A DNA stretch of 64,000 bases, from the NCBI RefSeq assembly GCF_013170805.1, contig NZ_CP051293.1:4842001-4906000 (forward strand), given 5' to 3'. Below, in pieces: positions 30,184 to 46,905 of this stretch (position 1 is its first letter; every line of letters starts with the position of its first letter). The notes below the pieces were generated by a model. The model worked only from the letters and a program-made list of their open reading frames with translations. It was not told where the DNA came from and made no database searches. The position numbers were made by a program, and so were the translations under genes. This DNA is from Mesorhizobium sp. NZP2077 (GTDB taxonomy: Bacteria > Pseudomonadota > Alphaproteobacteria > Rhizobiales > Rhizobiaceae).

Positions 30184-30257
30184 TGGGGAATAGGTTAACG
30201 GTAGACCCACGGACTCTGACTCCGTTAGTCCTGGTTCGAATCCAGGTTCCCCAGCCA
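30184..30257 (+). tRNA. tRNA-Gln (anticodon CTG)
   Basis: The complete cloverleaf is readable: acceptor TGGGGAA pairs with TTCCCCA; D-stem GGT/ACC; anticodon stem ACGGA/TCCGT around the loop CTCTGAC with anticodon CTG; T-stem CCTGG/CCAGG around TTCGAAT; discriminator G and encoded CCA. It is the integration target of the element: the part from the anticodon stem to just past the CCA is duplicated at the far end of the island. Integration at this side kept a full, functional tRNA. Confidence 0.97.
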
Positions 30258-30261
30258 AACA
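30209..30261 (+). repeat. attL, 53-bp direct repeat inside tRNA-Gln
   Basis: The 53 bases from the first base of the anticodon stem (position 27 of the tRNA) to four bases past the CCA recur exactly at 46853-46905. The base before and the base after differ between the copies, which defines the core as 53 bp. The integrase gene starts 64 bases inside. Confidence 0.95.
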
Positions 30262-30324
30262 AAATCAAGCACTTAGCGATACCTGAATCCCACCATCGAG
30301 CCTCCATGTCGCGTTTGTGTCGCG

Positions 30325-31587
30325 TCAAGCTCCGAGCAATGCCTTTTCGGCCACTGCCAAGGCCTCCTGATCGTTGGTGCTCGGGAACAGATGGCCGTAG
30401 GTATCGGCCGTCATCACGATGCTGGAATGACCCATGCGGGCCTGCACCGTCTTGATGTCCTTCCCCTGCCCGCCGGCCTCCTTGGGATTGATCAGCCAAC
30501 TGGCATAGAAATGCCGAAGCGCATGCAGGCCGGTGTACTTCGCGGCCAAGACGGGCTCGCCCTTCTTGTCGAGCTTAGGCTTACCGCTCGCGTCGAGCGC
30601 GGGAACCGTCAAGCCGGCCTCGATCTGCGGCGGGTGCAAGCCCCGTGTCACGATGTTGGCGTGAAACTCGATGTTTCCCTCGCCGTTCGGGAAAACCAGA
30701 TCAAGCTGGCCCTTCGGGCATTTTAGCTTCCACTCCCGCAGCGTGTTGACGACCATCGGCGCCAGCGGAATCGTCCGATCTTCGCCGGCCTCAGACTTAG
30801 GAAGGCCGATCGGGTTATAGCCTTCGTCGATATATTTCTTGGCGTGGTATTTGTCGGCGCGCTGGCGCACATGCAGCTCGCCCGCCTTCAGATCCACATC
30901 GATCCACCGCAGGCCGCGCAATTCAGACGAGCGCAGCCCGGTGAAGATGGCGGTGATAATAAGCGGCCGATGCCAACCCTTGCTATTCTCCAGAATGAGC
31001 CGGATCTCAGCCGGTGACGGTATGTCGACGCCGACCTTCAGCTTAGGCTTGCGGTCGCCATTCTTCTTGCGCTTCCGCCGTGTCGACATGTCATGAACGA
31101 CGTTGCGAGCGACGAGCCCGCGCTCTTGCGAATCGGCCAGAAGCGAGCCGAGGCTGACGGTGACGCGCTTGATCATGTCGGCGCTACAAACCTGGTTCTT
31201 GGTGCCGTGCGCCTCGGTGCGGAGTCGATCCTGAAACTGGCGCACCACGGGGATGCTGAGCTTCGACAAGCGCAGATTGCCCAGAAAAGGTTCGATATGC
31301 TCGTTGAGGTGCTGGCGGCGCTGGTCGAGCGTTGTGCGCTCCAGCCCGGCGGCCGTACCATCCTCGAGCCAATAGACGCCGGCCTCCTTCACGCTGACGG
31401 TAGCGCGATCGGCGACGTGTGTCCCCTCGTCTATCGAGACCGTGGTCTTTGCCTCCCATGCGTCGGCATCCTTCTTTTTGTCGAAGGTCTTGAGCCGACG
31501 GGTGCCCTGCCCGTCCACATAGTCGACGACCCAGGCCTCCTTCTCGACGCCCTTTGCCGTTGTCCACTTGCGCTTGCGAACTGACAT
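30325..31587 (-). CDS. int: Tyrosine site-specific recombinase (integrase)
   Basis: A 420-residue phage-type integrase. The N-terminal half has an arm-binding region and a SAM-like core-binding domain. The catalytic domain shows the first Arg in FTGLRSSELRGLRWIDVD, HALRHFYASWL with His and Arg, the box LGHSSIVMTADTYGHLF written here as MGHSSIVMTADTYGHLF with the nucleophile Tyr. All R-H-R-Y residues are present, so it should be active. Start ATG 31587 is preceded by AGAGGT. It lies next to attL and is driven leftward by a near-consensus promoter. Confidence 0.95.
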   Translation of the reverse strand: MSVRKRKWTTAKGVEKEAWVVDYVDGQGTRRLKTFDKKKDADAWEAKTTVSIDEGTHVADRATVSVKEAGVYWLEDGTAAGLERTTLDQRRQHLNEHIEPFLGNLRLSKLSIPVVRQFQDRLRTEAHGTKNQVCSADMIKRVTVSLGSLLADSQERGLVARNVVHDMSTRRKRKKNGDRKPKLKVGVDIPSPAEIRLILENSKGWHRPLIITAIFTGLRSSELRGLRWIDVDLKAGELHVRQRADKYHAKKYIDEGYNPIGLPKSEAGEDRTIPLAPMVVNTLREWKLKCPKGQLDLVFPNGEGNIEFHANIVTRGLHPPQIEAGLTVPALDASGKPKLDKKGEPVLAAKYTGLHALRHFYASWLINPKEAGGQGKDIKTVQARMGHSSIVMTADTYGHLFPSTNDQEALAVAEKALLGA

Positions 31588-31637
31588 GACACTTACCTCT
31601 TTTGCGTAGCCGCCCGTAATGAACGGAACCATGTTGC

Positions 31638-31665
31638 ATTATGTCGCAAACAATCCGCTTGTCAA
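31638..31665 (-). promoter_or_regulatory. Integrase promoter
   Basis: Read on the minus strand, TTGACA (31665-31660) and CATAAT (31643-31638) with 16 bases between are a nearly perfect -35/-10 pair, about 50 bases before the int start codon. The -35 TGTCAAT is one arm of an inverted repeat with ATTGACA at 31688-31694, which could be a repressor site over both divergent promoters. Confidence 0.7.
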
Positions 31666-31710
31666 TTGATGGCAGCTAATGCGCGTCATTGACAGCCAAC
31701 GTAAATTCAG

Positions 31711-31731
31711 AGTACGTAATGCGTACTTGAT
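31711..31731. promoter_or_regulatory. Palindromic operator of the element's regulator
   Basis: AGTACGTAATGCGTACT (31711-31727) is a dyad with six-base arms AGTACG/CGTACT. The extended half CGTACTTGAT (31722-31731) recurs exactly at 32286-32295, just before the next small gene. Both are upstream of element genes beside the MerR-like regulator, the pattern expected of its binding sites. Confidence 0.65.
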
Positions 31732-31743
31732 TGGAGCGCCGTT

Positions 31744-32253
31744 TTGCAACTCGAATACACCTTGGCTGATCTGACCAGGATCGTCGGCGCAAAGCGTCGG
31801 ACTATCCAGCTATGGGCAGAGGCTGGCGCCATAAAAGCCGATGACGAAACCGAGCGCGCAGGCACAGGCACTCATCGGCGGTTCAGCCGGCGGGAAGCCC
31901 TTATAGCTTGTCTTCTGAAGCCCTTTGCCGACTACCAGATGAGCATCGGCTTTCTGATCGGAATTGCCGACTCCATCCGCGACGAAGGTGCCGCAGCCTG
32001 GCGCTGGGAATTGCTTGAGAGAGCCATTCAAGATGAAAGCATGGTCTACATGCTGCTTCGGCGCTTTGGCCATGAATTCGAAATAGCCTTGATCGACGTC
32101 AATCACGTCGGCACCAGCGAGTATTTCCAGGACCGCCACGCAGATCTTGGAGCGCTGATAACGAAGGGCGGCAGTTTTGTAGCTCAAGATGTCGTGCCCA
32201 CATCGGTGCTGGTGTTTTTGGTGAACCCTTTCGTCTCGAAAATAGAGAAATAG
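31744..32253 (+). CDS. MerR-like helix-turn-helix regulator of the element
   Basis: A 169-residue protein. The N-terminus YTLADLTRIVGAKRRTIQLW, then RRFSRREALIACLL, is a winged helix-turn-helix of the MerR/excisionase superfamily, and the C-terminal 100 residues show no known effector domain. The start is TTG 31744. Because it is divergent from int and faces the palindromic operators, it probably controls the choice between integration and excision. A lambda-type CI repressor is not seen in the element, so this may be its main switch. Confidence 0.75.
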   Translation: MQLEYTLADLTRIVGAKRRTIQLWAEAGAIKADDETERAGTGTHRRFSRREALIACLLKPFADYQMSIGFLIGIADSIRDEGAAAWRWELLERAIQDESMVYMLLRRFGHEFEIALIDVNHVGTSEYFQDRHADLGALITKGGSFVAQDVVPTSVLVFLVNPFVSKIEK

Positions 32254-32290
32254 CCTCCCTTTTTTGCTATCTTAAGAACGGAGAACGTAC

Positions 32291-32488
32291 TTGATCAACG
32301 ACAACGAAGCCCAAAGCATCGACCTCGTGTGGGGTGCCGAGAACATCGGAAAAGAGATCAACCAGAAGCCTAGGCAGACATTCTACATGCTTGAGGCTGG
32401 CCTGCTGCCGGCAAAGAAGGTCGGCACCAAGTGGGTGGCCGAGCGTGGCAAGTTGCGCGCTTTCTTCATCGGCGAGGATGTAGCATGA
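32291..32488 (+). CDS. Small excisionase-like DNA-binding protein
   Basis: A 65-residue protein whose core IGKEINQKPRQTFYMLEAGLLPAKKVGTKWVAERGKL reads as a winged helix-turn-helix with a Trp-containing wing, as in many phage excisionases. The start is TTG 32291 with GGAG seven bases upstream. The repeat CGTACTTGAT overlaps the start codon, so binding of the regulator would block expression. Recombination directionality factor is the likely role. Confidence 0.6.
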   Translation: MINDNEAQSIDLVWGAENIGKEINQKPRQTFYMLEAGLLPAKKVGTKWVAERGKLRAFFIGEDVA

Positions 32489-32682
32489 CTGCCGCCCTCA
32501 CCGCGCCCGAGCACTCCCACACCGCGGCGATCGACCAGGCCGCGCAATGGTTGGCCACAACTCCACCACGGCAGCGGCCGGCGCCGCTCGTGCCAGCAAT
32601 GCGGGAAATGTTCGGGCTCTCAGCAGTTGAGGTATGCGCGGCCATTCGCGAGGCCCAACTGATCAGAGCGCGCGCCGCGTGA
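32485..32682 (+). CDS. Small hypothetical protein
   Basis: A 65-residue protein with MTAALTAPEHSHTAAIDQAA at its start and a helical C-terminus (MREMFGLSAVEVCAAIREAQ) that could be a DNA-binding helix-turn-helix. Its ATG overlaps the end of the excisionase-like gene. I do not recognise a family. Its place in a run of early genes suggests a regulatory or accessory role. Confidence 0.6.
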   Translation: MTAALTAPEHSHTAAIDQAAQWLATTPPRQRPAPLVPAMREMFGLSAVEVCAAIREAQLIRARAA

Positions 32683-32684
32683 CC

Positions 32685-33146
32685 ATGCAGCCGTCGACCT
32701 TCATCCCTGGCGCCGATGTGAAAAATCCGCGGTGGACGGGCAAGCGAAAGAAGATCCCGCGCTGCACTTCTGGCTCGATCCACATGACGTGGGGAAAGAC
32801 CATCAAGGAATGCGAGGACGCTTTCGCCGACTGGCACCATTGTGCCCTGCAGATCGTGCACGCCGAGAATGTCAGCTTTCGCCTGCTTGCCTTCGTCCGC
32901 CAGTATCTCAACATGAAGACGGGCACCATCAGTGGCACCAATCTGGAATTTGCCAAGATGGGCGGCGGCTGCTCGATCAAGACCATTTCCCGTGAGATCG
33001 GCCTCTATGAGGGGCTTGGTCTGTTCATCGGAACGCGGCGCCGGCACAAGATCCCGGGCGGCGGGATCAACGAAGTTCGGACCCTTCGCCTATCGCTACC
33101 GAAGACGTTTGCGCCAGGAATAACGATGCGGGAGGCAGACCCGTGA
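32685..33146 (+). CDS. Helix-turn-helix protein, possibly replication initiation
   Basis: A 153-residue basic protein. WTGKRKKIPRC is followed by a helical domain with an apparent recognition helix: TNLEFAKMGGGCSIKTISREIGLYEGLGLF, then a basic wing TRRRHKIPGGGINEVRTLRL. Such winged-helix proteins occur in phage and plasmid replication genes. Three 18-bp palindromes start one base after its stop codon, the usual arrangement of an iteron origin beside its initiator. ATG 32685 is used, and GTG 32679 is an alternative. The replication role is inferred from the context. Confidence 0.55.
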   Translation: MQPSTFIPGADVKNPRWTGKRKKIPRCTSGSIHMTWGKTIKECEDAFADWHHCALQIVHAENVSFRLLAFVRQYLNMKTGTISGTNLEFAKMGGGCSIKTISREIGLYEGLGLFIGTRRRHKIPGGGINEVRTLRLSLPKTFAPGITMREADP

Positions 33147-33249
33147 GGACCACAGTGGTCCCGCATGGTGGCCATGGTCTGCCGGACCACTGTGGTCCCG
33201 CGTGGACCTTGCTCGCATCCCCTCGCATGTGGGGCCACAGTGGTCCCGC
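33147..33249. repeat. Three palindromic iterons (GGACCACAGTGGTCCCGC)
   Basis: Copies at 33147-33164, 33184-33201 and 33232-33249. The first is GGACCACAGTGGTCCCGC, the second differs only in the central A to T (GGACCACTGTGGTCCCGC), the third has GGG for GGA at the left. Each is a 15-bp dyad with seven-base arms plus a CGC tail in one orientation. Spacings are 37 and 48 bases. They are either an iteron origin used by the preceding gene or operators for a dimeric regulator. Confidence 0.85.
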
Positions 33250-33279
33250 TAATACAGCCACATCTTGCTCGGGTGACGC

Positions 33280-33576
33280 ATGACGCAACTGGACCTTTTC
33301 AAGCAAGCACCGAAGGACGCGGGCCAGGTCGTGGCATTCCCAGTCGATCGCCGCGCCATGATGGTCAGGGCAACTGCGCACCAGCTCGGCACCCTCGACT
33401 ACATCGCCGGGCGCAAGTTCTGGAATGCCCATGTCAAGGCGCTGCGGACCGAGCTTCGCGCCGTCGGTATTCCATGCCGGAAAGTCGATCTGGAAATCCG
33501 TCGATATTCCGCAGCCGTTGCTCGCACCGTCAATCCTTCCCTGCTTTACCAGGGCGGACCAGACACCGCAGCTTGA
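33280..33576 (+). CDS. DUF6074-like protein
   Basis: A 98-residue protein with the DUF6074 pattern VVAFPVDRRAMMVRATAHQL near the N-terminus and a helical C-terminus with LRTELRAVGIPCRKVDLEIRR. DUF6074 proteins are small, of unknown function, and abundant in rhizobial prophage regions. It follows the iterons by 31 bases. Confidence 0.7.
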   Translation: MTQLDLFKQAPKDAGQVVAFPVDRRAMMVRATAHQLGTLDYIAGRKFWNAHVKALRTELRAVGIPCRKVDLEIRRYSAAVARTVNPSLLYQGGPDTAA

Positions 33577-33913: not shown

Positions 33914-34537
33914 ATGCGCTCCAAAGCGATCTTGAAAACGTCTCGCTGCCAGATCTGCAAGCATCCCGAGCGGATGCGGATCGAGATGCTTCGCCTGGCC
34001 GGCATGTCGCTGGACAGCATCGCTGAGAAGTTCGCGCTTGGCTCCGGTGGCCGCGATGCGGTGTGGCGGCATTGCCGTGAGCACGTCAGCGAAGACGAAA
34101 AGGCCATGATGCTGGCCGACGTGCCGCTGCAGGAAGCCGCAGAGCGGGCCGCAGCCGAGGGCATCTCGTTGCTCGATTACCTGGCCCTGATCCGCAGCGC
34201 ATTGCTCCAGCAAGTCCGCTTGGCCGCAGCAACGAACGATCGCCACGGCTTGGCTGCTGTGTCCGGCAAGGCGCTGCTGTGCTTGCGCCAGATCGGCGAG
34301 ATCACCGGCCAGCTCAAGGGCTTCGGTCCTCGCACCATCCACAACACGCAAATCAACTTCATGGCTTCACCGGCCTTCGCTCTGGTGCAGGCCGCGCTAA
34401 TCAAGGCGCTGCAGCCGCATCCTGAGGCGATGGCCGCTGTTGTGGCTGCGCTGCAGGATCTTGAGGCTTCCACGCCAATGCCGGCGCCAGACACGCTCAC
34501 GCTGCCGCCGGAGGGCTACCATGCCCATGCAGCCTAG
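33914..34537 (+). CDS. Probable terminase small subunit
   Basis: A 207-residue protein immediately before the large terminase. The start has CQICKHPERMRIEMLRLAG and SLDSIAEKFALGSGGRDAVW, a zinc-ribbon-like Cys pair followed by a helix-turn-helix, then WRHCREH, with further Cys and His residues. Small terminase subunits recognise the cos or pac site through such a domain and oligomerise through the helical rest. Its stop lies 17 bases inside the next gene. The assignment rests on position plus the DNA-binding-like domain. Confidence 0.65.
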   Translation: MRSKAILKTSRCQICKHPERMRIEMLRLAGMSLDSIAEKFALGSGGRDAVWRHCREHVSEDEKAMMLADVPLQEAAERAAAEGISLLDYLALIRSALLQQVRLAAATNDRHGLAAVSGKALLCLRQIGEITGQLKGFGPRTIHNTQINFMASPAFALVQAALIKALQPHPEAMAAVVAALQDLEASTPMPAPDTLTLPPEGYHAHAA

Positions 34538-35852
34538 CCTCGCCAGCGCGCTTGCCAAATCGCTGGCCGAAAGCTGGCGGATGAAGGCCCGGCCTGAACA
34601 GGTCGCGCCTCATGGTGATTGGGCGGTGTGGCTCGTCATTGCCGGCAGGGGCTTTGGCAAAACGCGCTGTGGGTCTGAGTGGTCTCACGAGCAGATCGCC
34701 GCCGGTGTGTCGCGCCTCGCTCTTGTCGGGCCAACGGCGGCCGACGTTCGCGACGTCATGGTTGAGGGCGAATCCGGCATCATCGCAACCGCGCCGAGTT
34801 GGAACAGGCCCGACTATCAACCCGCGCTTCGCAGGCTCACATGGCCAAACGGTGCCGTTGCAACCTGCTACTCGGCTGACGAGCCGGAGCGACTGAGAGG
34901 ACCACAACACGAGGCGGCTTGGTGTGATGAGATCGGCGCCTGGCGCTATCCGCAAGCTTGTTGGGATCAGTTGCAATTCGGCTTGCGCCTTGGTGCGCGG
35001 CCCCGAGCGATCGCGACTACGACGCCGAAGCCGAGCAAGCTTTTGAAGGATCTCATTGCTCGGGCCGGCAAGGATGTCGTCATCACCCGAGGAAAGACCA
35101 AGGACAACGCCAGCAATCTCGCTCCTACGTTCCTGAAGGCCATAGAAGACCGCTACGGCGGCACGCGACTTGGCCGGCAGGAACTTGACGGGGAAATGCT
35201 CGAAGACGTTGCCGGCGCGTTGTGGCAACGGAGCTGGTTTGATCGCGACCGCGTGGAAAGCGCTCCGCAGTTGATGCGCGTCGTGGTCGCCGTCGACCCT
35301 GCGATCAGCAACAAAGAAGGTTCGGACGAAACCGGCATCATCGTGGCCGGCTTGGGCCAGGATGGGCGCGGCTATGTGCTCGACGATGGTTCGGGCCGCT
35401 ATGCACCCCAGGAATGGGCAACGAAGGCGGTCGACTTGTACGAAAAGCACCGCGCTGATCGTGTCGTGGCCGAGAAAAACCAGGGCGGCGACATGGTCGA
35501 AGCAACGCTTCGCATGGTCGATCCGCGCGTGCCCGTGAAGCTGGTTCATGCCAGCCGCGGCAAGGCGGTACGGGCCGAACCTGTCAGCGCGCTGTACGAG
35601 CAAGGCAAGATTTCCCACGTCGGCGCCTTCCCGGCCCTTGAAGACCAGCTTTCCAGCTTTGCCAGCGACTTCGACCGGGCGCGCGCTGGCTACTCGCCTG
35701 ACAGGCTGGACGCGCTGGTCTGGGCCTTCACCGAACTGATGGTGAAGGAGCGCCACGACATGAATCTCAGCTTCGCGGGACCGGTAATGGAAATCATCAC
35801 CCTGAACGAAGGTCCGCAATTCTACGACGGCGACTTCGAATACCGCGGCTGA
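34521..35852 (+). CDS. terL: Phage terminase large subunit
   Basis: A 443-residue packaging motor. GRGFGKTRCG (about residues 43-51) is the Walker A site. AAWCDEIGAW (Asp136-Glu137) is Walker B plus the catalytic Glu. AIATTTPKP (about 163-171) is the coupling motif. The RNase-H-like nuclease has Asp259 in VVAVDPAISNKEGSDETG, Asp269/Glu270, Glu318 in VVAEKNQGGDMV, and an Asp in SPDRLDALVWAF. ATPase and nuclease both look intact. GGAGGG seven bases upstream sets ATG 34521. The neighbouring gene downstream should be a portal but is not. Confidence 0.95.
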   Translation: MPMQPSLASALAKSLAESWRMKARPEQVAPHGDWAVWLVIAGRGFGKTRCGSEWSHEQIAAGVSRLALVGPTAADVRDVMVEGESGIIATAPSWNRPDYQPALRRLTWPNGAVATCYSADEPERLRGPQHEAAWCDEIGAWRYPQACWDQLQFGLRLGARPRAIATTTPKPSKLLKDLIARAGKDVVITRGKTKDNASNLAPTFLKAIEDRYGGTRLGRQELDGEMLEDVAGALWQRSWFDRDRVESAPQLMRVVVAVDPAISNKEGSDETGIIVAGLGQDGRGYVLDDGSGRYAPQEWATKAVDLYEKHRADRVVAEKNQGGDMVEATLRMVDPRVPVKLVHASRGKAVRAEPVSALYEQGKISHVGAFPALEDQLSSFASDFDRARAGYSPDRLDALVWAFTELMVKERHDMNLSFAGPVMEIITLNEGPQFYDGDFEYRG

Positions 35853-35867
35853 AAAAGGAGAACCCCC

Positions 35868-36818
35868 ATGCTGTCAAAGCTCAGATCTTTCATCATCGGC
35901 ACCCGCGACGGGGCCAAGGTCGCGGCTGACGAGTTCGCCACGGTCGAAGCGGCCTATGCTGAAGCCGCCCTCGAGGTCGAGGGCCTGGCCGGTAAAAAGC
36001 TCGCCCTCGACATGAAGCCCGAGGCGAAACAGCCAGGCGAAACCCGCGAAGAACACGCCAGCCGGCTGTGGGAGTTGCAGACCGAGCGCAAGGCTCTCGC
36101 CGGCAAGATCGAAGGCGCCAGCGCAGCGCTGAAGGAACTGTCGACCAAGCGCACCAAGCTCCGCAATGACCGTGAGCAGGCCCAGCGCACCGCAACGCTC
36201 GCTGAAGGCTCGCAGGACGGCGCTGAGGCGATTGCAGCGGTAAAGGCTGCAAAGGTGCTCGTCACCGATATCGAGGCGAAACGGACGGCTGCCACCCAGC
36301 ACTCGGAAGCCCTTGCCACTGAGCGAAGCGCGATCGCATTGCAGGCACATTCCGGTGATGACGCTGCCAGGCGCCGGCTCGATGAACTGCATGGCGAGAT
36401 CGGCACGCAAAATTCCGAACGTGCATCGCTCGACAGCGCCTTGGCCGAAGCCCAGCAGCGGTTGAAGGATGCCGAGGCGGTGCTCGCCGGCCAGGACAGG
36501 GCCTATCGGCAGTCTGAAGCCGCGCGCATCTCCGCGTTGCTTCTCGAACAATCGGCTATTGCCGACACGGCGCTTGCCGCGGCCGCTGCGGCCCTGCATC
36601 GGCGTCGGGATCTGGCAACCGAGCTTCGCAAGACCGGCATCATCAGTTCCAGCATGACGAACCAGTTGGGGTCGCCGATGACGATGAACCGGGCTCTTGC
36701 AGCGGCCGGTTTGGGCGATTTCGCCCGGTTCGATCGCGGTGGCCACGCCACGCCATTGGCCGACCACGACGTCAAGATCGTTGGGCGCCCGACAGGGTCT
36801 GCCCAGGCGGCGGCATAG
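35868..36818 (+). CDS. Coiled-coil protein in the portal position
   Basis: A 316-residue protein dominated by Ala-, Glu-, Lys- and Arg-rich heptad repeats from about residue 25 to 240 (for example ERKALAGKIEGASAALKELS), with a short non-helical C-terminal tail. There is no hydrophobic segment. It starts 15 bases after terL, with GGAG before the ATG, so it belongs to the packaging operon. It shows no resemblance to a portal or capsid protein. A scaffold-like or motor-adaptor role is possible; I recognise no family. Confidence 0.8.
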   Translation: MLSKLRSFIIGTRDGAKVAADEFATVEAAYAEAALEVEGLAGKKLALDMKPEAKQPGETREEHASRLWELQTERKALAGKIEGASAALKELSTKRTKLRNDREQAQRTATLAEGSQDGAEAIAAVKAAKVLVTDIEAKRTAATQHSEALATERSAIALQAHSGDDAARRRLDELHGEIGTQNSERASLDSALAEAQQRLKDAEAVLAGQDRAYRQSEAARISALLLEQSAIADTALAAAAAALHRRRDLATELRKTGIISSSMTNQLGSPMTMNRALAAAGLGDFARFDRGGHATPLADHDVKIVGRPTGSAQAAA

Positions 36819-37468: not shown

Positions 37469-37490
37469 TCCAATCTTGAAAAGGTGAACC

Positions 37491-40700: not shown

Positions 40701-40912
40701 TCATCATCGCGCGGCCCGATCAGTTCGCGGATGTGCGGCCCGGAACAACCGGCACGGGATCGGCCGGCGGCACAGACGGACGCCCGATTAGCATCTCGAT
40801 CCCGATCACCATCCAAAGCGGCGCCAATGTCAGTAAGGACAGCATAGCCGCCATGCGCACGCAACTTGCCGCCGCCGTTCGCGATGGCCTGAGGTCTGTC
40901 AATGGTCGATAA
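37721..40912 (+). CDS. Phage tail tape measure protein
   Basis: A 1063-residue protein. The N-terminal 600 residues are repetitive Ala-rich helices with coiled-coil character, opening IQITGNIAAFEAALAKAEQR. A hydrophobic segment lies around residues 290-312 (FNPFVLGFLAISIGSEVAI). The C-terminal half has Gly/Ser-rich linkers and the tape measure signature GGPIVPGMPYLVGEHGPEFV, then PSGAGTVIPNAQ (about residues 760-790). In siphophages this protein sets tail length and lines the tube. It is the largest gene of the element and appears intact, yet almost no other tail gene accompanies it. Confidence 0.9.
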   Translation: MSDEAGSVVIQITGNIAAFEAALAKAEQRAIAFEARISAQLNGTGVSAGLAKIAAGVEQTNAFLAKLTTTSTAASTVLSKVAASTRETTAALGGVATAAKLVNAEMGTLGAGSNAGLAAGTISAREFAAALEATGGNLSKITPRMLGLAEAETAVTAAALEAQTAFRGLTEAQIQAFSAQQEGANFNRALNESFGLINSTTKSARDSALAFRDLGLAESEVGAQAKVAATEAAGLGAGVSREFSVLGSEVLRGNFSRIPGSLLVMNERLAGTGASVLTLGNGMKALGALGNVIFNPFVLGFLAISIGSEVAIRAFSGIKGSVLDVNTVLENNKKLIDDIAKAYPEAAVAAKQYEEQANQIPKSIAAADLKNQIADARKTLSADLNTLRIDLHALGGEFGLTGKAGSEAFEALSGRVHDGTISAQALYSEIGRLELDPKLSDEAHSFARSLEDAAKKAADLERSISADTGITKIVQDNAKAQHTLFEISAGFKDVNSSAGSADATIAKLFGTINTGGGSGFGVTRSLAGQFGNQLNGQLQSTLGMFQQVDAAVQDARQNQLAGMVQLEAQFRSTTTQVDVLKQAIATAAGKDNIDAFFGDVANIKDANAEIATATTTVQKLFDAMATGNATVNSVFQGLDMVRQTLIGDGFPVDKVNAFVDSLVRTNQQLVADQGAAHQLNAAIQAIQNRTVTITVVTQQVGSGTKSVYDVGSTGGIGVTRYGGQSDMTQQSYQVPATGGYDSSIGTSGVNVTRFGGTRAAGGPIVPGMPYLVGEHGPEFVIPSGAGTVIPNAQSTALANAQSGFTGQVATRDQDRMWQLQMNIEANTRKTAQLLDEIKTTSLASSSGLSSGSSSGSSTGNAATDTLAKQYAAVLTQIEANFHAAGIVGAGQIGYGSNGLAATPQDIAYNIVYGGQKSVGTPSGGGSSSGGGYQTLPGGQEYPELAGLTPNSPGYAAAYNSALARLNKSIGFSTGGIDSSDTQKVEFFKSPGEKVIIARPDQFADVRPGTTGTGSAGGTDGRPISISIPITIQSGANVSKDSIAAMRTQLAAAVRDGLRSVNGR

Positions 40913-41219
40913 TCCCGAAAAGTGGTGGAAGGCGCCGCCAGAGTTCGCTCACCTGGTCGAGCAGAACCGCGCGGAGTTCAAGGCCCAATTCGGCAGCTTC
41001 CCGGACGCGCTGATCAAGCGATATTGGTTGGGGACTTCAGACGACGGCGCATACCTGGCCTTCCAGTTCTATATGCCCGACGGGACCATTCAGCGCTTCA
41101 CGATGTGCCGGGAATGGGTGTCAGATTTTGTCATCCAGTTCGCAGGCGCGACGGACGATATGAACGAACGTGCACTCGCTGCGGGACTCGCAGTGGCGGA
41201 ACCGAAGGGGCAGGCCTGA
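40902..41219 (+). CDS. Hypothetical protein after the tape measure
   Basis: A 105-residue soluble protein (WWKAPPEFAHLVEQNRAEFK; RYWLGTSDDGAYLAFQFYMP). Its ATG overlaps the end of the tape measure gene, so the two are coupled. Position suggests a distal tail or tail-tip component, but no family is recognised. The next coding start (ATG 41219) is nested in its stop but gives only 19 codons. Confidence 0.65.
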   Translation: MVDNPEKWWKAPPEFAHLVEQNRAEFKAQFGSFPDALIKRYWLGTSDDGAYLAFQFYMPDGTIQRFTMCREWVSDFVIQFAGATDDMNERALAAGLAVAEPKGQA

Positions 41220-41258
41220 TGTTTGCACACATGCTAAAGCGGCGGCGCAGTTCGCGAC

Positions 41259-41360
41259 ATGGCTGGCTGGGCAGATGAAGTTCGCTTCAGCAATGGCGTT
41301 GCCCGCTATGCCTCTGATGCCGGCTTCACGGTGCCGACGACTGCCTTGCCGAGATCGTGA
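41259..41360 (+). pseudogene. Truncated phage ORF at the border of the cargo cassette
   Basis: The frame starts MAGWADEVRFSNGVARYASD, which looks like genuine phage-tail sequence, then quickly reaches TGA at 41358. The second half of this frame overlaps the 3' end of the reversed fatty-acid hydroxylase gene (stop at 41306-41308). The simplest reading is that the tail operon was cut here by the arrival of the cargo cassette. The remnant is short, so this is tentative. Confidence 0.4.
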
Positions 41361-42199
41361 CCCTTGCGCGGCAGGAAGGGATAGCCGATCTGGCCGAAAT
41401 AGTTCGCTGGGATCGGATCATCGACGCCATATTTCGCGGGCGTTGTAGCCCCCGGAACGCGGAAGGTGCCGAAAATCAGATCGATGATCGCCAGTTGGCC
41501 GGCGAAGTTCTTGTCATAGGCGGCACGCTCACCGGCGTGATGCCAATGATGGAATTGCGGGCTAGCGATCAGCCATTTGAGTGGGCCGAAATTGATTTTG
41601 ACGTTGGCGTGGATAAACATCGCATGCGCCGCATAGATCACGAAGTAGATGCCTATGGACGCGCCCGAAAAACCGAGGAAGAACACCGGCAGCAATGCCA
41701 CTGCCTTCGTCAGCATCTGATCGACCGGATGCGAGTGGAACGCGGCGAGCCAATCCATCTCCTCGACGCTATGATGAATCGAATGGAAACGCCACAGCAC
41801 CGGTATGGCATGGAATGCCCGGTGCGCGGCGTAGACACCAAGATCGGTCAGTACGATGATCTCAAGCACCTGCAGCCACGTTGCTTGGCTACTGACGGCC
41901 GACGGAAGGCTCGGCGGCATCAGCACGGCAAGCGCGCCGATCACCGGCGCGAGCAGCATGCCGGCGAGGATATCGACAGCGGTGCCGTTGAAGATGGCAT
42001 AGATCAGATCGGTGAAGACGCCCTTGCGGAGTATCTTCTGCTGCTCGCGTAGCGCAAACAGCCGCTCCAGGGGTACGAAAATCATCAGGCCTATGAGTAG
42101 CGACCTCAGCCCCAACTGATCCGCGACGTGCAGTAAAAAGTCCAAATCCCGCCCCCCAAGCCAAGGCTGATTAGAAGCACTGTCGGGCTTGCCACACAA
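41306..42199 (-). CDS. Fatty-acid hydroxylase / sterol desaturase family protein
   Basis: A membrane protein of up to 297 residues with the diiron histidine boxes of the family: HRAFH, HSIHH and HFHHWHH, all present. Hydrophobic helices lie before box 1 and between boxes 2 and 3. These enzymes hydroxylate or desaturate lipids using a di-iron centre. The start is uncertain: TTG 42199 opens the longest frame, but TTG 42145 with GGGGGG upstream looks better. It is in reversed orientation to the phage genes, as part of a cargo cassette with two Flp pilins. The link to lipid modification of the host envelope is inferred. Confidence 0.85.
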   Translation of the reverse strand: MCGKPDSASNQPWLGGRDLDFLLHVADQLGLRSLLIGLMIFVPLERLFALREQQKILRKGVFTDLIYAIFNGTAVDILAGMLLAPVIGALAVLMPPSLPSAVSSQATWLQVLEIIVLTDLGVYAAHRAFHAIPVLWRFHSIHHSVEEMDWLAAFHSHPVDQMLTKAVALLPVFFLGFSGASIGIYFVIYAAHAMFIHANVKINFGPLKWLIASPQFHHWHHAGERAAYDKNFAGQLAIIDLIFGTFRVPGATTPAKYGVDDPIPANYFGQIGYPFLPRKGHDLGKAVVGTVKPASEA

Positions 42200-42223
42200 G
42201 GTTTTGGTTCACGAACAGTTAAT

Positions 42224-42605: not shown

Positions 42606-42812
42606 TTACGGCGTGCAGGTGCTTCCTGTAATACCGTTGGTGCCGAGCGCAGTGCAGAGTCCGGTAAACTGGCTCCCAACCCACCCGCCAATCGCAATAA
42701 TCGCAACGATTGATACCGCCGCGATGATGCCAATCAAGATCGAGTATTCCACCATGGCAGCGCCGTTCTCATCGTTGCGGAACTGCATGGCTACGTGGAG
42801 AAGCCGCTTCAT
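42606..42812 (-). CDS. Flp-type (type IVb) pilin, copy 2
   Basis: A 68-residue pilin. A short leader MKRLLHVAMQFRNDENG precedes the conserved AAMVEYSILIGIIAA, with Gly at -1 and Glu at +5 relative to the expected prepilin peptidase cut. A hydrophobic helix and a short C-terminus with two Cys (LCTALG, STCTP) follow. It is a close paralogue of the upstream pilin. Flp pilins are polymerised by the Tad secretion machinery, which is not encoded here, so host Tad genes would be needed. Confidence 0.9.
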   Translation of the reverse strand: MKRLLHVAMQFRNDENGAAMVEYSILIGIIAAVSIVAIIAIGGWVGSQFTGLCTALGTNGITGSTCTP

Positions 42813-42826
42813 GGCTATATTCTCGA

Positions 42827-43051
42827 TCAGCTAGCCGCAGCGGTGCTGCAAGTGCCGGTGCCGGTGCCGCCCGAGCCGATACCCGTGCCGGACAGCTTGG
42901 AGCAGAGGCCGGTGAACTGACTGCCGACCCAGCCACCGATGGCGATCACGGCCACGATGGAAGCGGCGGCGATGATACCGATGAGGATCGAATATTCGAC
43001 CATCGCGGCGCCGTTCTCGTCGTCGCGAAACTGCTTCATCATATTACGCAT
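42827..43051 (-). CDS. Flp-type (type IVb) pilin, copy 1
   Basis: A 74-residue pilin with leader MRNMMKQFRDDENG and core AAMVEYSILIGIIAA, then AIGGWVGSQFTGLCSKL and a Gly/Thr-rich C-terminus ending in CSTAAAS. ATG 43051 has AGGGG seven bases upstream, which decides the start. It precedes copy 2 by 14 bases in the same direction. The gene pair has its own promoter just upstream. Finding Flp pilins as cargo of a phage-like element is unusual. Confidence 0.92.
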   Translation of the reverse strand: MRNMMKQFRDDENGAAMVEYSILIGIIAAASIVAVIAIGGWVGSQFTGLCSKLSGTGIGSGGTGTGTCSTAAAS

Positions 43052-43446
43052 GTAATAACCCCTTTTGTTGACTTCACACCCCGGAGTAGCCGGCATATCC
43101 ATGCCCCCAAGCCGCCCCGTCGAAGATTATTTAGCTCTCGCTCATATGCGGGTGTCAAAGGGAATTTAACAGAACATTAACCGCGATGACTTCACGGTTG
43201 CTTGGTGTCCCTTCTAATTCCCTGAAATCCAACAGAATTCCGGAACTTAACCATAGCGTCATCCCGCCGCCTGCCATCCGATCGCGCCACCGGGGTCGTT
43301 CGCAATCGATATATCCTGTTATGTCAACCTGCTCGCGAGGGCCGACGGAAAGGAGGGAGTGCCTGTCACGGCTGCTCGGAATGCGGCGATCTTGTCTATC
43401 AGCCGAGACTTATGCAGTATCCGCCACGTTCACAGCGAGGCGCGGC
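43052..43446. promoter_or_regulatory. Intergenic region with the Flp cassette promoter
   Basis: Reading leftward, TTGACA (43158-43153) and TAAATAAT near 43133-43126 form a -35/-10 pair for the pilins with an 18-19-base spacer. The transcript leader would be about 70 bases. To the right, GAGGCG before ATG 43447 is the ribosome-binding site of the next gene. A longer upstream frame for that gene from 43186 exists but has no ribosome-binding site. Confidence 0.55.
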
Positions 43447-43905
43447 ATGCTTGCGAGAACTCCCTTCACCGAAATCGAGATCGAGGGCGTGGGCACCTAT
43501 CGCTTGCCCAACCAGTGGCAAGGCCAACGGCTCCGGCGCCTTCGTGGCGATAAGCGGCACACCGCCGTGCTGGCGATCGGTTGCGGGATGACAGTGCACC
43601 AGTTCAACAAGCTGCCGGCCGACAAGCAGCATGAGGTGCACAAGGCCTACCTAGCGCTGATGTCATCCGCCAACGTCGTGCCGCTGGCAGATCCGTTGCC
43701 TGCCGATACACGAGCGATCCCCCGCGGGCACCTCTCGCTCGAGCAGAAGATGGCGATCGGCCGCTGGCTGCTGCACCAAAAGGCGACACTGCCCCATGGT
43801 CATTTCGGGCCTTGGCTCGACAAGCAGGAAGGTCTTTCGCGGTCGATGGCTTCGCAATGCATGGCGCTGGCCAAAGGGAGCGAAGGCGAGCACCGAACGG
43901 CTTAG
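43447..43905 (+). CDS. DUF3102-like phage protein
   Basis: A 153-residue protein. The C-terminal half LEQKMAIGRWLLHQKATLPHGHFGPWLDKQEGLSRSMASQ has the DUF3102 pattern (IG..L...K..L.HG.F..WL), which is common in phages and in defence-island proteins. The N-terminal half begins MLARTPFTEIEIEGVGTYRL. It is the first + strand gene after the cargo cassette and is close to phage accessory genes. Function unknown. Confidence 0.65.
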   Translation: MLARTPFTEIEIEGVGTYRLPNQWQGQRLRRLRGDKRHTAVLAIGCGMTVHQFNKLPADKQHEVHKAYLALMSSANVVPLADPLPADTRAIPRGHLSLEQKMAIGRWLLHQKATLPHGHFGPWLDKQEGLSRSMASQCMALAKGSEGEHRTA

Positions 43906-43977
43906 CCCGCCCCCTTTGGTGGACAAAACTTGACGAAAATCAAATCCGGCGCATGACGTTGGGCGGATAGTGGCTCG

Positions 43978-44175
43978 ATGTGGCAGTCGATCCTTAGCGC
44001 GCCATTCTTCCGCAGTCTGGAACTCGCCGTTCTGGACGAGGAAGGCATGCACTCGCTGGTTTTTCCTTGCGAAAGGACTTTGAAGGGGTGGAAGCACGCC
44101 ATTACCGGAAAGCTTGTGGACGTCGACCCTACCCATTGGCGTGACTGGATTGACTCAGATCAGGCCGCCCCATGA
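43978..44175 (+). CDS. Small rhizobial hypothetical protein
   Basis: A 65-residue protein with LDEEGMHSLVFPCERTLKGW and THWRDWIDSD, a pattern I recall from many small rhizobial proteins of unknown function. Its stop overlaps a following ATG. No other feature helps to assign it a role. Confidence 0.65.
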   Translation: MWQSILSAPFFRSLELAVLDEEGMHSLVFPCERTLKGWKHAITGKLVDVDPTHWRDWIDSDQAAP

Positions 44176-44318
44176 AAGGACATGGCGAAGCTGGCCACAG
44201 CGGGGCGCCAGGACGCGCGGGCCGCTTCGCCGGTGTAAGGAGAGCGGACGGCGGGAAAGTGCGCTGGCGGGCTCTGGCAAAGCCAGCGGCGGGACGCCGA
44301 ATCTGCTATCCCCGAATC

Positions 44319-44894
44319 ATGTTCAATCCCGCACTTCACGTGTTTCCGAAAGAGGCGGCACTTGTCGGCCTCCTCGTTGCCGGCTACGGCGAGCTTGATA
44401 TCTGCTTGGGCCACGTTTGCGGCCTAGCAGTGGGCGACAAATACGCGGTGCTGGAAGCGCTGAACAAGGTTTCCAGCGAACAGGCCCGCATCGAAATTGC
44501 GAACAGCCTGGCCAAGCACATTCTGGAAGCGAAGGGCTTTGGCACGAAGTTCGGCGAGGCGGTCGGTGCGATAAATCTATGCCGGAAGATCCGCAACCAG
44601 TATGCGCATGCTCAATGGCTGAGCGTCGACGGGAAGCTTGGCTTCGTCCGGGCCGATAGCATCAATTGGAGAGATAAGGATTCGATCCGACCGTCGACCC
44701 TGACCCTCGCCATCCTGGAAAAGCAGGAGCTGTATTTCGAATACACTCGAAAATGCTTGATCTGGTTAGAGTTCCAATTGGGCACACCGAAGCCCAGCGT
44801 CGCCATCCCGTGGCCCAAGCACATGCAGCGGCCACCCTTAGATGCCGGGAACGCGTCAACAGCCGGGCAAGCGTCGCCACCGCAAAACGGCTAG
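44319..44894 (+). CDS. HEPN-like protein
   Basis: A 191-residue soluble helical protein. CRKIRNQYAHAQW (about residues 88-100) contains R-x4-H, the hallmark of HEPN domains, which in many toxin and anti-phage systems act as ribonucleases. The upstream helices have the conserved acidic pattern. I start at ATG 44319, which fits the domain, although a longer frame begins at 44172. No antitoxin-like partner is obvious. The motif alone is modest evidence, so the catalytic role is tentative. Confidence 0.5.
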   Translation: MFNPALHVFPKEAALVGLLVAGYGELDICLGHVCGLAVGDKYAVLEALNKVSSEQARIEIANSLAKHILEAKGFGTKFGEAVGAINLCRKIRNQYAHAQWLSVDGKLGFVRADSINWRDKDSIRPSTLTLAILEKQELYFEYTRKCLIWLEFQLGTPKPSVAIPWPKHMQRPPLDAGNASTAGQASPPQNG

Positions 44895-45244
44895 CTTGAC
44901 GATTTCAGCGAATGAGAACATCTTCGCCGGCGGAGCGTAGCAACTCCCGCGAATGGCCTTAGCCGGGCCATTGGCACCCAGAGCGTAGGCAGGGCGATCC
45001 TTGCCGGGATCTTTCAGCCTACGAAAACGAACGCGCACACAAGCCGTGAGCGCGACCGGCCGCACTTTGTCGGGAAGGCCACGGCTATGCAATAGCCCGC
45101 AAGGGTAAAGGCCGTGGCGCATCGTCTCTGGCGATGTTGCTAACTTCCCGGCGCCAGTGACGAATGCTGGCATCAGGAGAGTTTGACAAGTTGGTCAAAC
45201 TTTCCCCGGCCGTAGCAAGCCGGTCTTATCCAGAGAGACGACCA
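44895..45244. other. Non-coding region with a perfect inverted repeat
   Basis: AGTTTGAC (45180-45187) and GTCAAACT (45194-45201) form an eight-base perfect dyad around AAGTTG, 44 bases before the next gene; it could be an operator. A 105-codon minus-strand ORF (44856-45173, ending VKLAVLRWRRLPGC) has protein-like character but no support. The rest shows nothing else I can name. Confidence 0.5.
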
Positions 45245-45403
45245 ATGACCTACATCACCATAGCCATGCTGCTTGCCGCAGCCGGCCTCCGCACGCGCCT
45301 CGGGCGCCTCTGCCTGGCTCACCAACTCCTCCGCGCCTCCAACGTGCTCCACGAGGCCGGCAGCCGCGTCCTTGACCATGTGAAGCGGGAGGCGGGCCAA
45401 TGA
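45245..45403 (+). CDS. Small amphipathic protein
   Basis: A 52-residue protein MTYITIAMLLAAAGLRTRLG and onward, with a short hydrophobic N-terminal segment and a basic-amphipathic C-terminus (ASNVLHEAGSRVLDHVKREAG). ATG 45245 has AGAGAG about nine bases upstream. Its stop overlaps the start of the acidic protein gene by four bases, so the two are likely co-expressed. Confidence 0.5.
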   Translation: MTYITIAMLLAAAGLRTRLGRLCLAHQLLRASNVLHEAGSRVLDHVKREAGQ

Positions 45404-46107
45404 CCGACCTCGATCTCACCAAGAAGGGCGAAGCCTACGTCGCGGCATCGCTGGCCGCTGATCCCGAAACCCTGCTTGTCGCGCTCACCAATCGGAAGGC
45501 CATCGCCGATTCGATTGAGCGGCTTATCGACATGCTTGACGCGATGTCGCCGGATCCTGACCTTGAGGACACTGCAGACGATGAGCCGTCGCTGCTTTCC
45601 CTTGACGATCTGGAACTCGACAACAGCGACTATGAACCGGACAGCGACGGCGAGCCGGCCATGGGCGCCATCGAACGCCATCCTACGTCTAGAGAAAGCC
45701 CGTGGGGGCGTTGTGGCGAGCTGACAGTCATGCACTACGGGAGCAACTCGCAAGAGGACTGGGCGGGCTCCCGCGCCACGGCACCGGGCCATGACGAGTG
45801 CGAAGCCGAAAACGAGCATGGCGGCGACGTGTTGGACGAGCCGCACGATCGCGAAGACGACGAGTACGAACTCGGCTGGACGGAGCATGTCGACCAACGC
45901 CTTGCCGGCAAGGTCGAAGAAGGCAAATGGAACCATCCCGAAGGCGAGCCCGATCTCGGCTGGACGGGCTATGGGCGCGGCTGCACTGCCGACGAAGCGC
46001 GCGACGATCGGGAAGGCGACGACGAGCGGGAGGCAATCGACGAGCGGGAGGACGATCACGGGGATTACGACGGCCCCGGCTTCATATCGGGAGGGCAAGG
46101 GCTCTAA
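45400..46107 (+). CDS. Extremely acidic protein of unknown function
   Basis: A 235-residue protein in which Asp and Glu dominate long stretches (DPDLEDTADDEPSLLSLDDL; DDREGDDEREAIDEREDDHG). The first 45 residues form an ordinary helix. Its sequence, with DLGWTGYGRGCT and a duplicated YELGWTEHV-type unit, resembles a rhizobial hypothetical family. Such strongly acidic phage proteins can mimic DNA and block restriction enzymes or regulators, but that role here is a guess. It ends at a rho-independent terminator. Confidence 0.7.
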   Translation: MTDLDLTKKGEAYVAASLAADPETLLVALTNRKAIADSIERLIDMLDAMSPDPDLEDTADDEPSLLSLDDLELDNSDYEPDSDGEPAMGAIERHPTSRESPWGRCGELTVMHYGSNSQEDWAGSRATAPGHDECEAENEHGGDVLDEPHDREDDEYELGWTEHVDQRLAGKVEEGKWNHPEGEPDLGWTGYGRGCTADEARDDREGDDEREAIDEREDDHGDYDGPGFISGGQGL

Positions 46108-46129
46108 AATCCAACCGGATTGGAATTTG

Positions 46130-46158
46130 GCCCGCTGCCTCACGGTGGCGGGCTTTTT
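46130..46158 (+). terminator. Rho-independent terminator after the acidic protein gene
   Basis: GCCCGCTGCC (46130-46139) pairs with GGTGGCGGGC (46144-46153) around TCAC, a ten-base stem that needs two G-U pairs. Five T residues follow. It lies 23 bases after the stop and just before the reversed gene at 46165. Confidence 0.8.
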
Positions 46159-46164
46159 AGTTGC

Positions 46165-46677
46165 CTACTGCTGCTGGGGGAAGCTAAAAATGGGCCGGCC
46201 GCCCGTGCGCAGCCGTTCTTCCTCGTTCGCCCATATCTTCCAGGACCGAACTCGTGCCCCTTGATATCGTTCCTCGTTCGCCGGTCGGTAGGAAATCATG
46301 TTCAGTAATATGAGTTTACGGTTCATTCGCTGATCGAGCATGTTCGCAATGATGCTCGTGATTCCGGTATCAAATAGCCGAATTTCGCCGGCAGAATCCG
46401 CCCCCTCCGCGTTTCCGGGGAATGTTTCTTCGTCGGGAAGCAACTCCATAACCCATTCGGCTCCATAGCTGAAACAGCGGTGCTCATAGCCTATGGGAAG
46501 AATCGAGAAAGCCGGGATTTGGTGGTTTGACGACAGCACCAAATACGTGTTCTTCCCTACAAGCTTTTCTAGAACGACAGCCAGCAGAGCCCCGCCTCCG
46601 TTGGCGTCGAATCTCACCAGTTCTCCCGGCTCACAAGTCTCAGCTTTTCTCACTTCCCCTGGATTTACCAAACGCAT
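46165..46677 (-). CDS. Hypothetical protein at the right end of the element
   Basis: A 170-residue soluble protein beginning MRLVNPGEVRKAETCEPGEL, with LLAVVLEKLVGKNTYLVLSS and LLPDEETFPGNAEGADSAGE. ATG 46677 has GGGGG about ten bases before it; a longer frame from 46773 lacks such a site. No family is recognised. Its place near attR, opposite to the other late genes, resembles an accessory (moron) gene. Confidence 0.6.
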   Translation of the reverse strand: MRLVNPGEVRKAETCEPGELVRFDANGGGALLAVVLEKLVGKNTYLVLSSNHQIPAFSILPIGYEHRCFSYGAEWVMELLPDEETFPGNAEGADSAGEIRLFDTGITSIIANMLDQRMNRKLILLNMISYRPANEERYQGARVRSWKIWANEEERLRTGGRPIFSFPQQQ

Positions 46678-46852
46678 GATGACTAGCCCCCGTTGTGTCG
46701 CGCGCATGTTGCGTGGACCTGCCGATAGTCGCAGGAAACCCTTGGAAATCAACGGGAATGATTTGCAACACAACGCGACATGAAAAGCACCCTCCCTTCT
46801 ATCATCGAATTGATTATAAACGATAAATTAGCTATTTCGCGCGATACGGCGG

Positions 46853-46905
46853 ACGGACTCTGACTCCGTTAGTCCTGGTTCGAATCCAGGTTCCCCAGCC
46901 AAACA
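46853..46905 (+). repeat. attR, 53-bp direct repeat (3' half of tRNA-Gln)
   Basis: Exact copy of 30209-30261, comprising the tRNA from the anticodon stem to four bases past the CCA. No acceptor 5' half or D-arm precedes it, so it is not a tRNA gene. It marks the right junction of the element. Confidence 0.95.

Follow-up and report, generated by a model that had tools for sequence, protein, structure and literature searches.

A tRNA-Gln element of Mesorhizobium sp. NZP2077 with its own terminase and tape measure genes, a probable phage satellite

Architecture of the tRNA-Gln Element

The window analyzed here, a stretch of 64,000 nucleotides from Mesorhizobium sp. NZP2077 (C1:4842001-4906000 of the 7.69-Mb genome), harbors an integrated element of 16,697 bp (30209-46905) that encodes a terminase and a tape measure protein (TMP), carries no recognized head gene, and is probably a phage satellite. 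The element is bounded by exact 53-nt direct repeats, the left of which overlaps the 3′ part of the gene for tRNA-Gln(CTG), and its integrase matches phrog_1 (E 7.6e-54); both observations bear out an earlier note, made from the sequence alone, that had placed a tRNA-Gln element here. As satellites are, it is a discrete integrated element with an integrase and attachment (att) repeats. The site is empty in two of nine relatives fetched with the right flank (L184 and L187; G and L numbers are our own labels), where left flank, tRNA-Gln, and right flank lie close together. The features that define the element are as follows.

30184..30257, + strand: tRNA-Gln (CTG), attachment site (ARAGORN)
30209..30261, + strand: left 53-nt direct repeat, exact copy of 46853-46905
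30325..31632, − strand: tyrosine integrase, 435 aa (Phage_integrase 1.9e-14, phrog_1 7.6e-54)
31744..32253, + strand: MerR/HTH_17-like regulator, 169 aa (weak Pfam match, E 0.004, below cut-off)
32291..32488, + strand: small helix-turn-helix (HTH)-like protein, 65 aa, in the AlpA slot of relatives (homologues in G065b and G132)
32485..32682, + strand: c2, 65 aa, element-family marker (cluster of 12 loci including the window)
32679..33146, + strand: possible replication initiator, 155 aa (by position only)
33147..33249, no strand: three palindromic 15-mers, GGRCCACWGTGGTCC, candidate origin or operator (intergenic, before the packaging genes)
33280..33576, + strand: DUF6074 protein, 98 aa (PF19551 9.4e-16)
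33914..34537, + strand: putative terminase small subunit (TerS), 207 aa (position, terL overlap)
34527..35852, + strand: terminase large subunit (TerL), 441 aa (longer reading: Terminase_6N 1.1e-29, Terminase_6C 7.7e-19)
35868..36818, + strand: coiled-coil protein cc316 (c8 family), 316 aa (homologues in four other elements)
36852..37325, + strand: p157, 157 aa (phrog_24785 3.5e-10)
37491..37679, + strand: doubtful open reading frame (ORF), 62 aa (gene caller only, weak score)
37721..40912, + strand: TMP, 1063 aa (phrog_10574 1.8e-7)
40902..41219, + strand: p105 (c3 family), 105 aa (behind TMP in 7 of 12 elements)
46853..46905, + strand: right 53-nt direct repeat, exact copy of 30209-30261

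The family matches of TerL (Terminase_6N/6C) and TMP (phrog_10574, 1.8e-7) confirm these two assignments of the earlier note. TerL retains a Walker A motif, GRGFGKT, and is 54% identical to the TerL of phage contig L153 and to that of Brevundimonas phage Polewnik. The integrase is 86-88% identical to that of element G065b, which likewise resides at tRNA-Gln(CTG). Two further assignments are less secure than the earlier note had them: the small terminase is putative, named from its position and length and from a counterpart (67-68% identity) in the corresponding slot of the related element G132, and the replication-like gene is a candidate, relatives having AAA_25, VapE-like, or primosomal genes in that region of the element; neither window protein matches a family. 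The 65-aa HTH-like protein has no Pfam or PHROGs family match, and the gene in the same slot of G146 encodes AlpA (PF05930). A longer reading of c2 (32431-32682) matches phrog_24797 (1.3e-4). The palindrome GGRCCACWGTGGTCC occurs at three sites (five matches counting both strands) and in none of 100 shuffles; among the fetched loci it is otherwise present only in L002, the window's own copy.

From terL to the TMP gene the gaps measure 15, 33, 165, and 41 nt if the doubtful 62-residue ORF at 37491-37679 is counted. The close spacing that the earlier note had described holds on that count; with the ORF discounted, p157 and the TMP gene are separated by a single gap of 395 nt. The p105 gene overlaps the end of the TMP gene by 11 nt, and a hidden Markov model (HMM) of p105 finds no counterpart in the phage loci searched.

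Recurrence of the Plan in Related Mesorhizobium Elements

Relatives of the TMP occur in 17 of 146 genomes of the genus; genes in the fetched surroundings of these matches were called with a hexamer model trained on the same loci. When named genomes were scanned with an alignment of the TMP, 14 loci were returned, of which 13 belong to Mesorhizobium and the other to Pseudaminobacter. Eleven capsid-less elements lie in ten genomes (G000, the window; G065, twice; G074a, G081, G146, G113, G109, G132, G096a, and G141), and a twelfth lies in M. huakuii NBRC 15243. In three loci, G074b, G079b, and G087, the TMP is accompanied by capsid and protease, and the TMPs of G074b and G079b are broken. These three (L067/L068, L079/L080, and L077/L078, respectively) hold homologues of HK97-type capsid and protease and are possible capsid-forming relatives. 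G079a (by gene map) and G096b (portal, protease, and capsid confirmed) are full phages; G076, G159, and G020 are fragments, and G032 and G145 are distant phage-like loci.

Repeats at tRNA genes flank nine of the 12 elements: eight are of 49-59 nt and span 13.8-16.6 kb, and that of the M. huakuii element is of 32 nt and spans 14.5 kb. No att repeats were found for G065a, G113, and G141, the last of which fills its contig. Six kinds of tRNA are used: Gln(CTG), Gln(TTG), Arg, Asn, Phe, and Thr. The shared plan begins with the integrase, a small HTH gene (AlpA in G146), c2, replication genes, and the TerS slot; it ends with TerL or none, a c7/c8 protein of ~220-350 residues, described as helical from a model of the window copy, the TMP, and, in seven of 12, p105. 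In G074a the integrase lies at the opposite end. TerL is of the window type in G000 and G132 and of the c10 type in both G065 elements, G146, G081, G141, and M. huakuii; the extended TerL match of G081 has an internal stop. G109 and G113 share a protein of 145-147 residues, the G109 copy of which is weakly TerS-like (phrog_4044, E 0.0057). The M. huakuii element also carries a 504-aa gene (L097:13009-14523, − strand), whose 89% identical counterpart in phage G079a follows the tail genes.

These genes are under purifying selection. The ratio of nonsynonymous to synonymous substitution rates (dN/dS) is 0.10-0.27 for TMP, TerL, p157, p105, and their neighbors in the 15 scored pairs of 16: 0.17-0.25 for TMP (five pairs; 0.17-0.18 for the window TMP), 0.10-0.13 for TerL (three pairs; 0.12 for the window copy against G132), 0.18 for p157, and 0.15 for p105.

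Search for Head Genes

Twenty window proteins were scanned against Pfam and PHROGs, with the second pilin and the 60- and 62-residue ORFs left out. Terminase and TMP aside, none matches a head, connector, baseplate, or lysis family, in agreement with the earlier note. Across the 12 elements, none of the 278 called proteins matches any of 13 references for capsid, portal, and protease (phmmer, E<=0.01), which mostly owe their names to homology or position, and the capsid and protease HMMs c41, c46, and c101 match only G074b, G079b, the two G087 loci, and phage-like loci. Family scans of the elements agree on the absence of head genes among the families listed, the pooled PHROG results being the best 25 of 101 families in one scan and the best 25 of 34 in another. 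These scans took in 126 of 164 listed proteins of at least 100 aa, three of the 164 lacking a single-locus reference, with many shorter and some already scanned proteins dropped; a further selection comprised 41 proteins.

By gene content the window element thus has an incomplete set of virion genes, as satellites do. It does not encode the capsid, protease, portal, and connectors of its own that characterize the capsid-forming phage-inducible chromosomal islands (cf-PICIs), and of their own terminase it has TerL by family match and TerS by position only. Nor is it an ordinary phage-inducible chromosomal island (PICI) with TerS and no virion structural genes, as TMP and TerL are both present. 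Hallmark genes of P4 or of the PICI-like elements (PLEs) are not named in the general Pfam and PHROGs scans, in which no dedicated search for them was made.

Tape Measure Proteins Shared with Phages

The window TMP shows 48% identity to its counterpart in phage contig L142. It has matches in IMG/VR contigs and none among annotated phages at 1e-5. Virion-region genes of 17 phage loci were searched for matches to 475 proteins from 22 chosen elements (BLASTP, E<=1e-6); loci that bear a capsid or are unbounded (the capsid-bearing loci, L194, L195, L199, L200, L202, and L204) stand outside the 22, the limits of G065a, G113, G141, and L206 are known only roughly, and a number of the 17 phage loci break off where the contig or the fetched stretch ends. 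A phage-type TMP is present in 13 of the 22, namely 12 elements and, with a different TMP, the second element of the window genome. None of the 22 matches the placeable portal or major capsid genes of the 17 phage loci, nor the two genes (~200 and 270-360 residues) that follow the TMP gene in these phages.

Several elements carry further pieces of the phage virion region. The gene in the tail-chaperone position before the TMP gene is matched in G109 and G132, N-terminal parts of a hub-type protein in G113, G096a, and G078, fiber-like parts from the genes behind the hub in G141, G113, and G078, the scaffold-position protein, at this threshold, in G141, and packaging-region genes in L206. The names "chaperone," "hub," and "fiber" derive from position, shared ends, and the annotation of phage RDJLphi1, except for two family-matched fibers; the chaperone-position gene and the hub-type fragment have no Pfam match. 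The hub-type pieces end at about residue 580-610 of ~1150 and are 66% (G113) and 54% (G078) identical to L144. The fiber-like protein of G141 is 70-76% identical to phage genes over its 227 N-terminal residues, with no match beyond. Six elements carry a small gene that encodes a phage tail tip domain at its C terminus (PF24243), and its phage homologue in L146 lies upstream of the TMP gene. In G078:C1 (L136 and L137, joined 13188-15665), the hub-type piece belongs to an 825-aa chimera that unites the N-terminal half of a phage hub-type protein with an end resembling the gene behind the hub in L144.

The TMP tree comprises 15 satellite-class rows, which include the three capsid-bearing loci (those of G074b and G079b broken), and 15 phage rows, of which L144 and L149 are short. 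It requires five label changes, all forced by supported branches; satellites and phages are intermixed, which indicates that TMPs have been exchanged repeatedly. The window TMP falls within a clade of seven satellites (99/100). The TMP of G141 is nested among phage TMPs (100/100, 100/99), yet the p157 of this element is 74-75% identical to that of the window, so that either its TMP has been replaced or its backbone has recombined. The TMP of G096a, an element of 14.1 kb, groups with Mu-like phages (98/100), one of which is resident in the same genome.

Satellite TMPs measure 958-1072 aa and those of related phages 959-1132 aa (13 rows, not counting two broken or truncated phage TMPs of 873 and 882 aa). 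With the two ranges overlapping, a satellite-specific tail length is unsupported. The suggestion in the earlier note that the element imposes its own tail length on helper particles is therefore not borne out, and the TMP as a tail-length device was set aside.

p157 and cc316

The C-terminal 44 residues of p157 are 48% identical to the C terminus of RDJLphi1 gp72 (hhalign probability 97.5), and p157 and its relatives have in common with gp72 (370 residues) and KPP23 ORF085 (356 residues) a C-terminal motif. Some relatives of p157 have the N-terminal motif as well (P0006: 41 residues, 54% identical to L142). In KPP23, the genes directly after ORF085 encode a virion protein and the annotated major capsid protein; gp72 is followed directly by a small gene and by one annotated as "capsid related," the annotated major capsid protein of RDJL being gp78. 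Both proteins are annotated as hypothetical, and "scaffold" is our reading of their position and helical make-up. On this comparison p157 may be scaffold-like, a candidate capsid-redirecting protein. The protein cc316, to which proteins of four other elements and two database entries are closely related or homologous, is a possible head-hijacking protein. The gene just before the scaffold-position gene, RDJLphi1 gp71, also has a homologue (49%) in a tRNA-Lys element (L205:7977-8414).

The earlier note had asked whether the uncharacterized proteins hide a portal or capsid fold. Structure prediction, applied to cc316 and p157, yields an all-helical model with long helices for cc316 (predicted local distance difference test score, pLDDT, 80.7), with no match in the PDB at E<=0.001, and a helical model for p157 (pLDDT 70), with no match among viral models at E<=0.001. 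For these two proteins the idea of a hidden head gene was set aside, no match to a capsid or portal fold being significant. The second-ranked hit of p157, an RDJL phage protein of 369 residues (E 0.26), is only suggestive.

Sister Elements and a Second Element in the Window Genome

Searching 146 genomes with the c10-type TerL yielded 24 places, spread over 19 of the genomes. Fourteen further contexts were fetched, eight of which have tRNA repeats of 47-66 nt enclosing 9.8-16.4 kb, and ten large proteins of these sister elements were scanned. L192 (14.5 kb, tRNA-Lys) encodes a DNA ejection protein (phrog_26400, 1.6e-23) and a fiber; L197 (11.8 kb, tRNA-Asn), an internal virion protein (phrog_342, 1.2e-11) and a fiber or decoration protein; and L202, which has an 18-nt repeat only, a 394-residue protein resembling the end of phrog_342 (1.6e-45). 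These three share the satellite backbone, with a podovirus-type ejection or internal virion protein in place of the TMP. No gene of such size lies close behind TerL in L193, L196, L198, and L201. The 752-aa gene of L194 and the 709-aa gene of L195 were considered as tape measures for their size and rejected, as they match other families.

The window genome contains a second satellite-like element, L206:1973-18737 (C1 about 4391970-4408740), with a tRNA-Ser nearby and no att repeat of at least 18 nt found. Besides c2, it encodes a TerL that belongs to a different family (PF03354) and a 617-aa TMP (phrog_9483, 3.2e-18) that is 53% identical to the TMP of phage G168. The TerL_ATPase locus of this genome, considered as a resident helper, looks like a second satellite instead.

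Comparison with Known Satellites and Phages

In the usual description, a phage satellite either takes over complete particles or builds its own heads and steals the tails. The closest known kind is the PICI-type satellite. With Gram-negative PICIs the window element shares a size of ~10-17 kb, integration at a tRNA gene, an integrase, and a TerS slot; it has a small HTH-like gene in the AlpA slot and a candidate replication gene, and relatives carry AlpA and VapE-like genes. Classical PICIs are not known to carry virion genes, and a 2026 abstract reportedly describes a phage satellite without structural-protein genes. In contrast, the Mesorhizobium elements have a TMP, TerL in eight of 12, and in some cases a chaperone-position gene, a fiber-like gene, or a hub-type fragment. 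SaPI1 CpmB, P4 Sid, and PLE TcaP, which redirect capsids, offer a parallel in role: p157 could act likewise, as a competing scaffold.

The cf-PICIs are described as having genes for capsid, protease, portal, and connectors and as needing nothing but tails from elsewhere (PMC10690885). The window element resembles them in having its own terminase and leaving the rest of the particle to a helper; with a TMP and no head genes, it is nearly their mirror image. The Streptomyces satellites MulchRoom and MiniFlayer likewise have packaging genes, and differ in encoding portal and capsid and no replication genes; MiniFlayer has a tail fiber gene and a proposed adsorption module (PMC10690885, in whose text the term "tape" does not occur). 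The Pseudomonas satellite AH14b, at 16.8 kb similar in size, uses the particles of another prophage, AH14a, and is reported to lack structural genes (PMC4936722). RDJLphi1-type and Mu-like alphaproteobacterial siphophages have related TMP, hub-type, chaperone-position, or scaffold-position proteins, and differ in having head and tail genes; the larger of their contigs or records measure about 40-66 kb. In the open-access PMC literature, as far as its texts could be consulted, no satellite is reported with a TMP gene, and the one paper there that mentions both phage satellites and Mesorhizobium is a review on plants and bacteria; an earlier description may exist in subscription papers.

Discussion

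We interpret the element as an integrated PICI-like phage satellite that has its own TerL and TMP and a putative TerS and would depend on a helper for its head. This is the best explanation overall, to which we assign a probability of about 0.78, and the family of such elements is likely functional. The satellite reading of the earlier note is well supported by the head-less arrangement of 12 elements, att sites in nine of them, intact genes, and purifying selection. Upon helper infection or induction, the element would excise by its own integrase and replicate. TerS and TerL would load its DNA into helper-made heads, for which the Walker A motif of TerL is present, and cc316 and p157, both predicted to be helical, could bias head assembly, p157 possibly as a small competing scaffold, since it retains the end motifs of the scaffold-position phage protein. 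Tails would be assembled from helper parts around the satellite's own TMP. The proteins for packaging and entry would thus come from the satellite itself, with the shell, portal, and tail tube on loan from the helper.

The TMP determines tail length in long-tailed phages, and in some it is established that the TMP exits the tail before the DNA and aids its crossing of the envelope. Because the satellite TMPs are neither longer nor shorter than those of phages, the likely gain is the entry role rather than tail length, and we prefer a TMP that serves entry or helper matching, a function that fits better with sister satellites carrying podovirus-type ejection proteins. Those three cases (L192, L197, and L202) suggest a wider claim, that satellites bring the ejected protein. 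Accordingly worded, the claim is tentative, at a little under even odds: a large group of Mesorhizobium satellites would travel with an entry kit, a helper-matched ejected protein combined with stolen shell, portal, and tube, its TMPs being swapped upon a change of helper. Taken together with it, and held just as cautiously, is a division of kits by helper, with a TMP for siphophages and T7/P22-type internal or ejection proteins for podophages, some with a fiber-like or tail-tip piece added.

Several observations weigh against the satellite interpretation. Neither the 155-aa replication candidate, even in its longer reading, nor the putative TerS has a Pfam or PHROGs family match. The likeness of p157 to phage proteins is confined to short end segments, and the scaffold role of the phage protein is itself putative. 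TerL was not recognized in four of the 12 elements (G074a, G113, G109, and G096a), and the Walker A motif GRxxGK[ST], present in eight of nine TerLs checked, is missing from the c10 TerL of G065b, so that a motor of its own is not universal in the family. No TMP accompanies the hub-type fragment of the sister element G078. In seven of the nine relatives fetched with the right flank, tRNA-Gln and the left flank do not adjoin that flank within the fetched stretch, and the site there differs or is occupied; the comparison of this site that the earlier note had proposed thus yields empty sites in two relatives only. One unplaced protein matched a PHROG family of virion structural proteins (4.3e-8), and single head-gene matches may be hidden beyond the best 25 PHROG families. 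The mobility that we attribute to the element is predicted from sequence. The window genome also shows no helper for this copy, having neither a DUF2460 tail gene nor a PF05065 capsid match; a satellite need not have a resident helper.

Among the alternatives, the one that survives best is that the TMP serves interference: a competing tape measure or partial hub would poison tail assembly of the helper and protect the host population. We regard this as unlikely. Tail-assembly inhibition (Tai) by systems encoded on PICIs, prophages, and P4-like satellites is described in PMC11364771, which lends the idea a precedent, and some elements hold only the N-terminal part of a phage hub-type protein. 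The TMPs of the 12 elements are, however, full length and follow phage TMP lineages, and the packaging genes are kept as if particles were needed.

Less probable still is that the TMP mainly sets a different tail length on particles built partly by the helper. In its favor, the protein is intact and under selection, but its lengths overlap those of phage TMPs, and the ejection proteins of the three sister satellites do not set tail length.

We consider it improbable that the element is a reduced prophage, a single phage in which terminase and TMP happened to survive the loss of the genes for head, neck, baseplate, and lysis; the earlier note had held a reduced prophage to be the simpler alternative. 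The virion-type genes do have phage relatives, at the identities given above for TMP (L142) and TerL (L153, Polewnik). A unique deletion with decaying remnants is not what is found, however: 12 distinct head-less elements occupy six kinds of tRNA, with intact ORFs, low dN/dS (0.10-0.27), att repeats, and empty sites, and decay is not expected to spare the TMP repeatedly while other virion genes go. It is this recurrence, with att sites, intact genes, and selection, that makes the reduced prophage unlikely. A domesticated device, such as a tailocin or the remnant of a gene transfer agent (GTA), is very improbable: TerL homologues of 49-57% identity across families of the order may belong to GTAs and the RDJLphi1 tail genes are annotated as GTA-like, but no tube, baseplate, or lysis family was found, there is no full head-tail cluster at a stable locus, and the elements, with integrase and att repeats, are scattered at different tRNAs.

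Satellites in which the TMP is the most constant virion gene would point to another control point, the tail-tube protein that enters the cell first. They would offer a testable case for TMP sequence, beyond length, mattering in DNA entry, and the TMPs that satellites and phages have traded would make up a natural series. If the proposal is true, entry-kit satellites are the reverse of cf-PICIs.

Accessory Genes

Behind p105 the element carries cargo and accessory genes.

41306..42199, − strand: fatty-acid hydroxylase family gene, cargo (PF04116 3e-28)
42606..43102, − strand: two tandem Flp/Fap-type pilin-like genes, cargo (first: PF04964, E 1.6e-5, below cut-off)
43447..46617, no strand given: remaining accessory genes, among them a DUF3102 protein and 235-aa and 150-aa proteins

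In the comparison with the 17 phage loci, cargo matches were obtained for the hydroxylase and the pilins of the window and for two M. huakuii genes. Homologues of the hydroxylase (63% in phage L150) lie eight genes behind the TMP gene in two Mu-like phage contigs, and it may therefore be a shared cargo gene. The tandem pilin-like genes form a repeat, D1, of 74%. In the Pseudaminobacter phage locus L106, a small gene ~60% identical to the window pilins lies behind the tail region.

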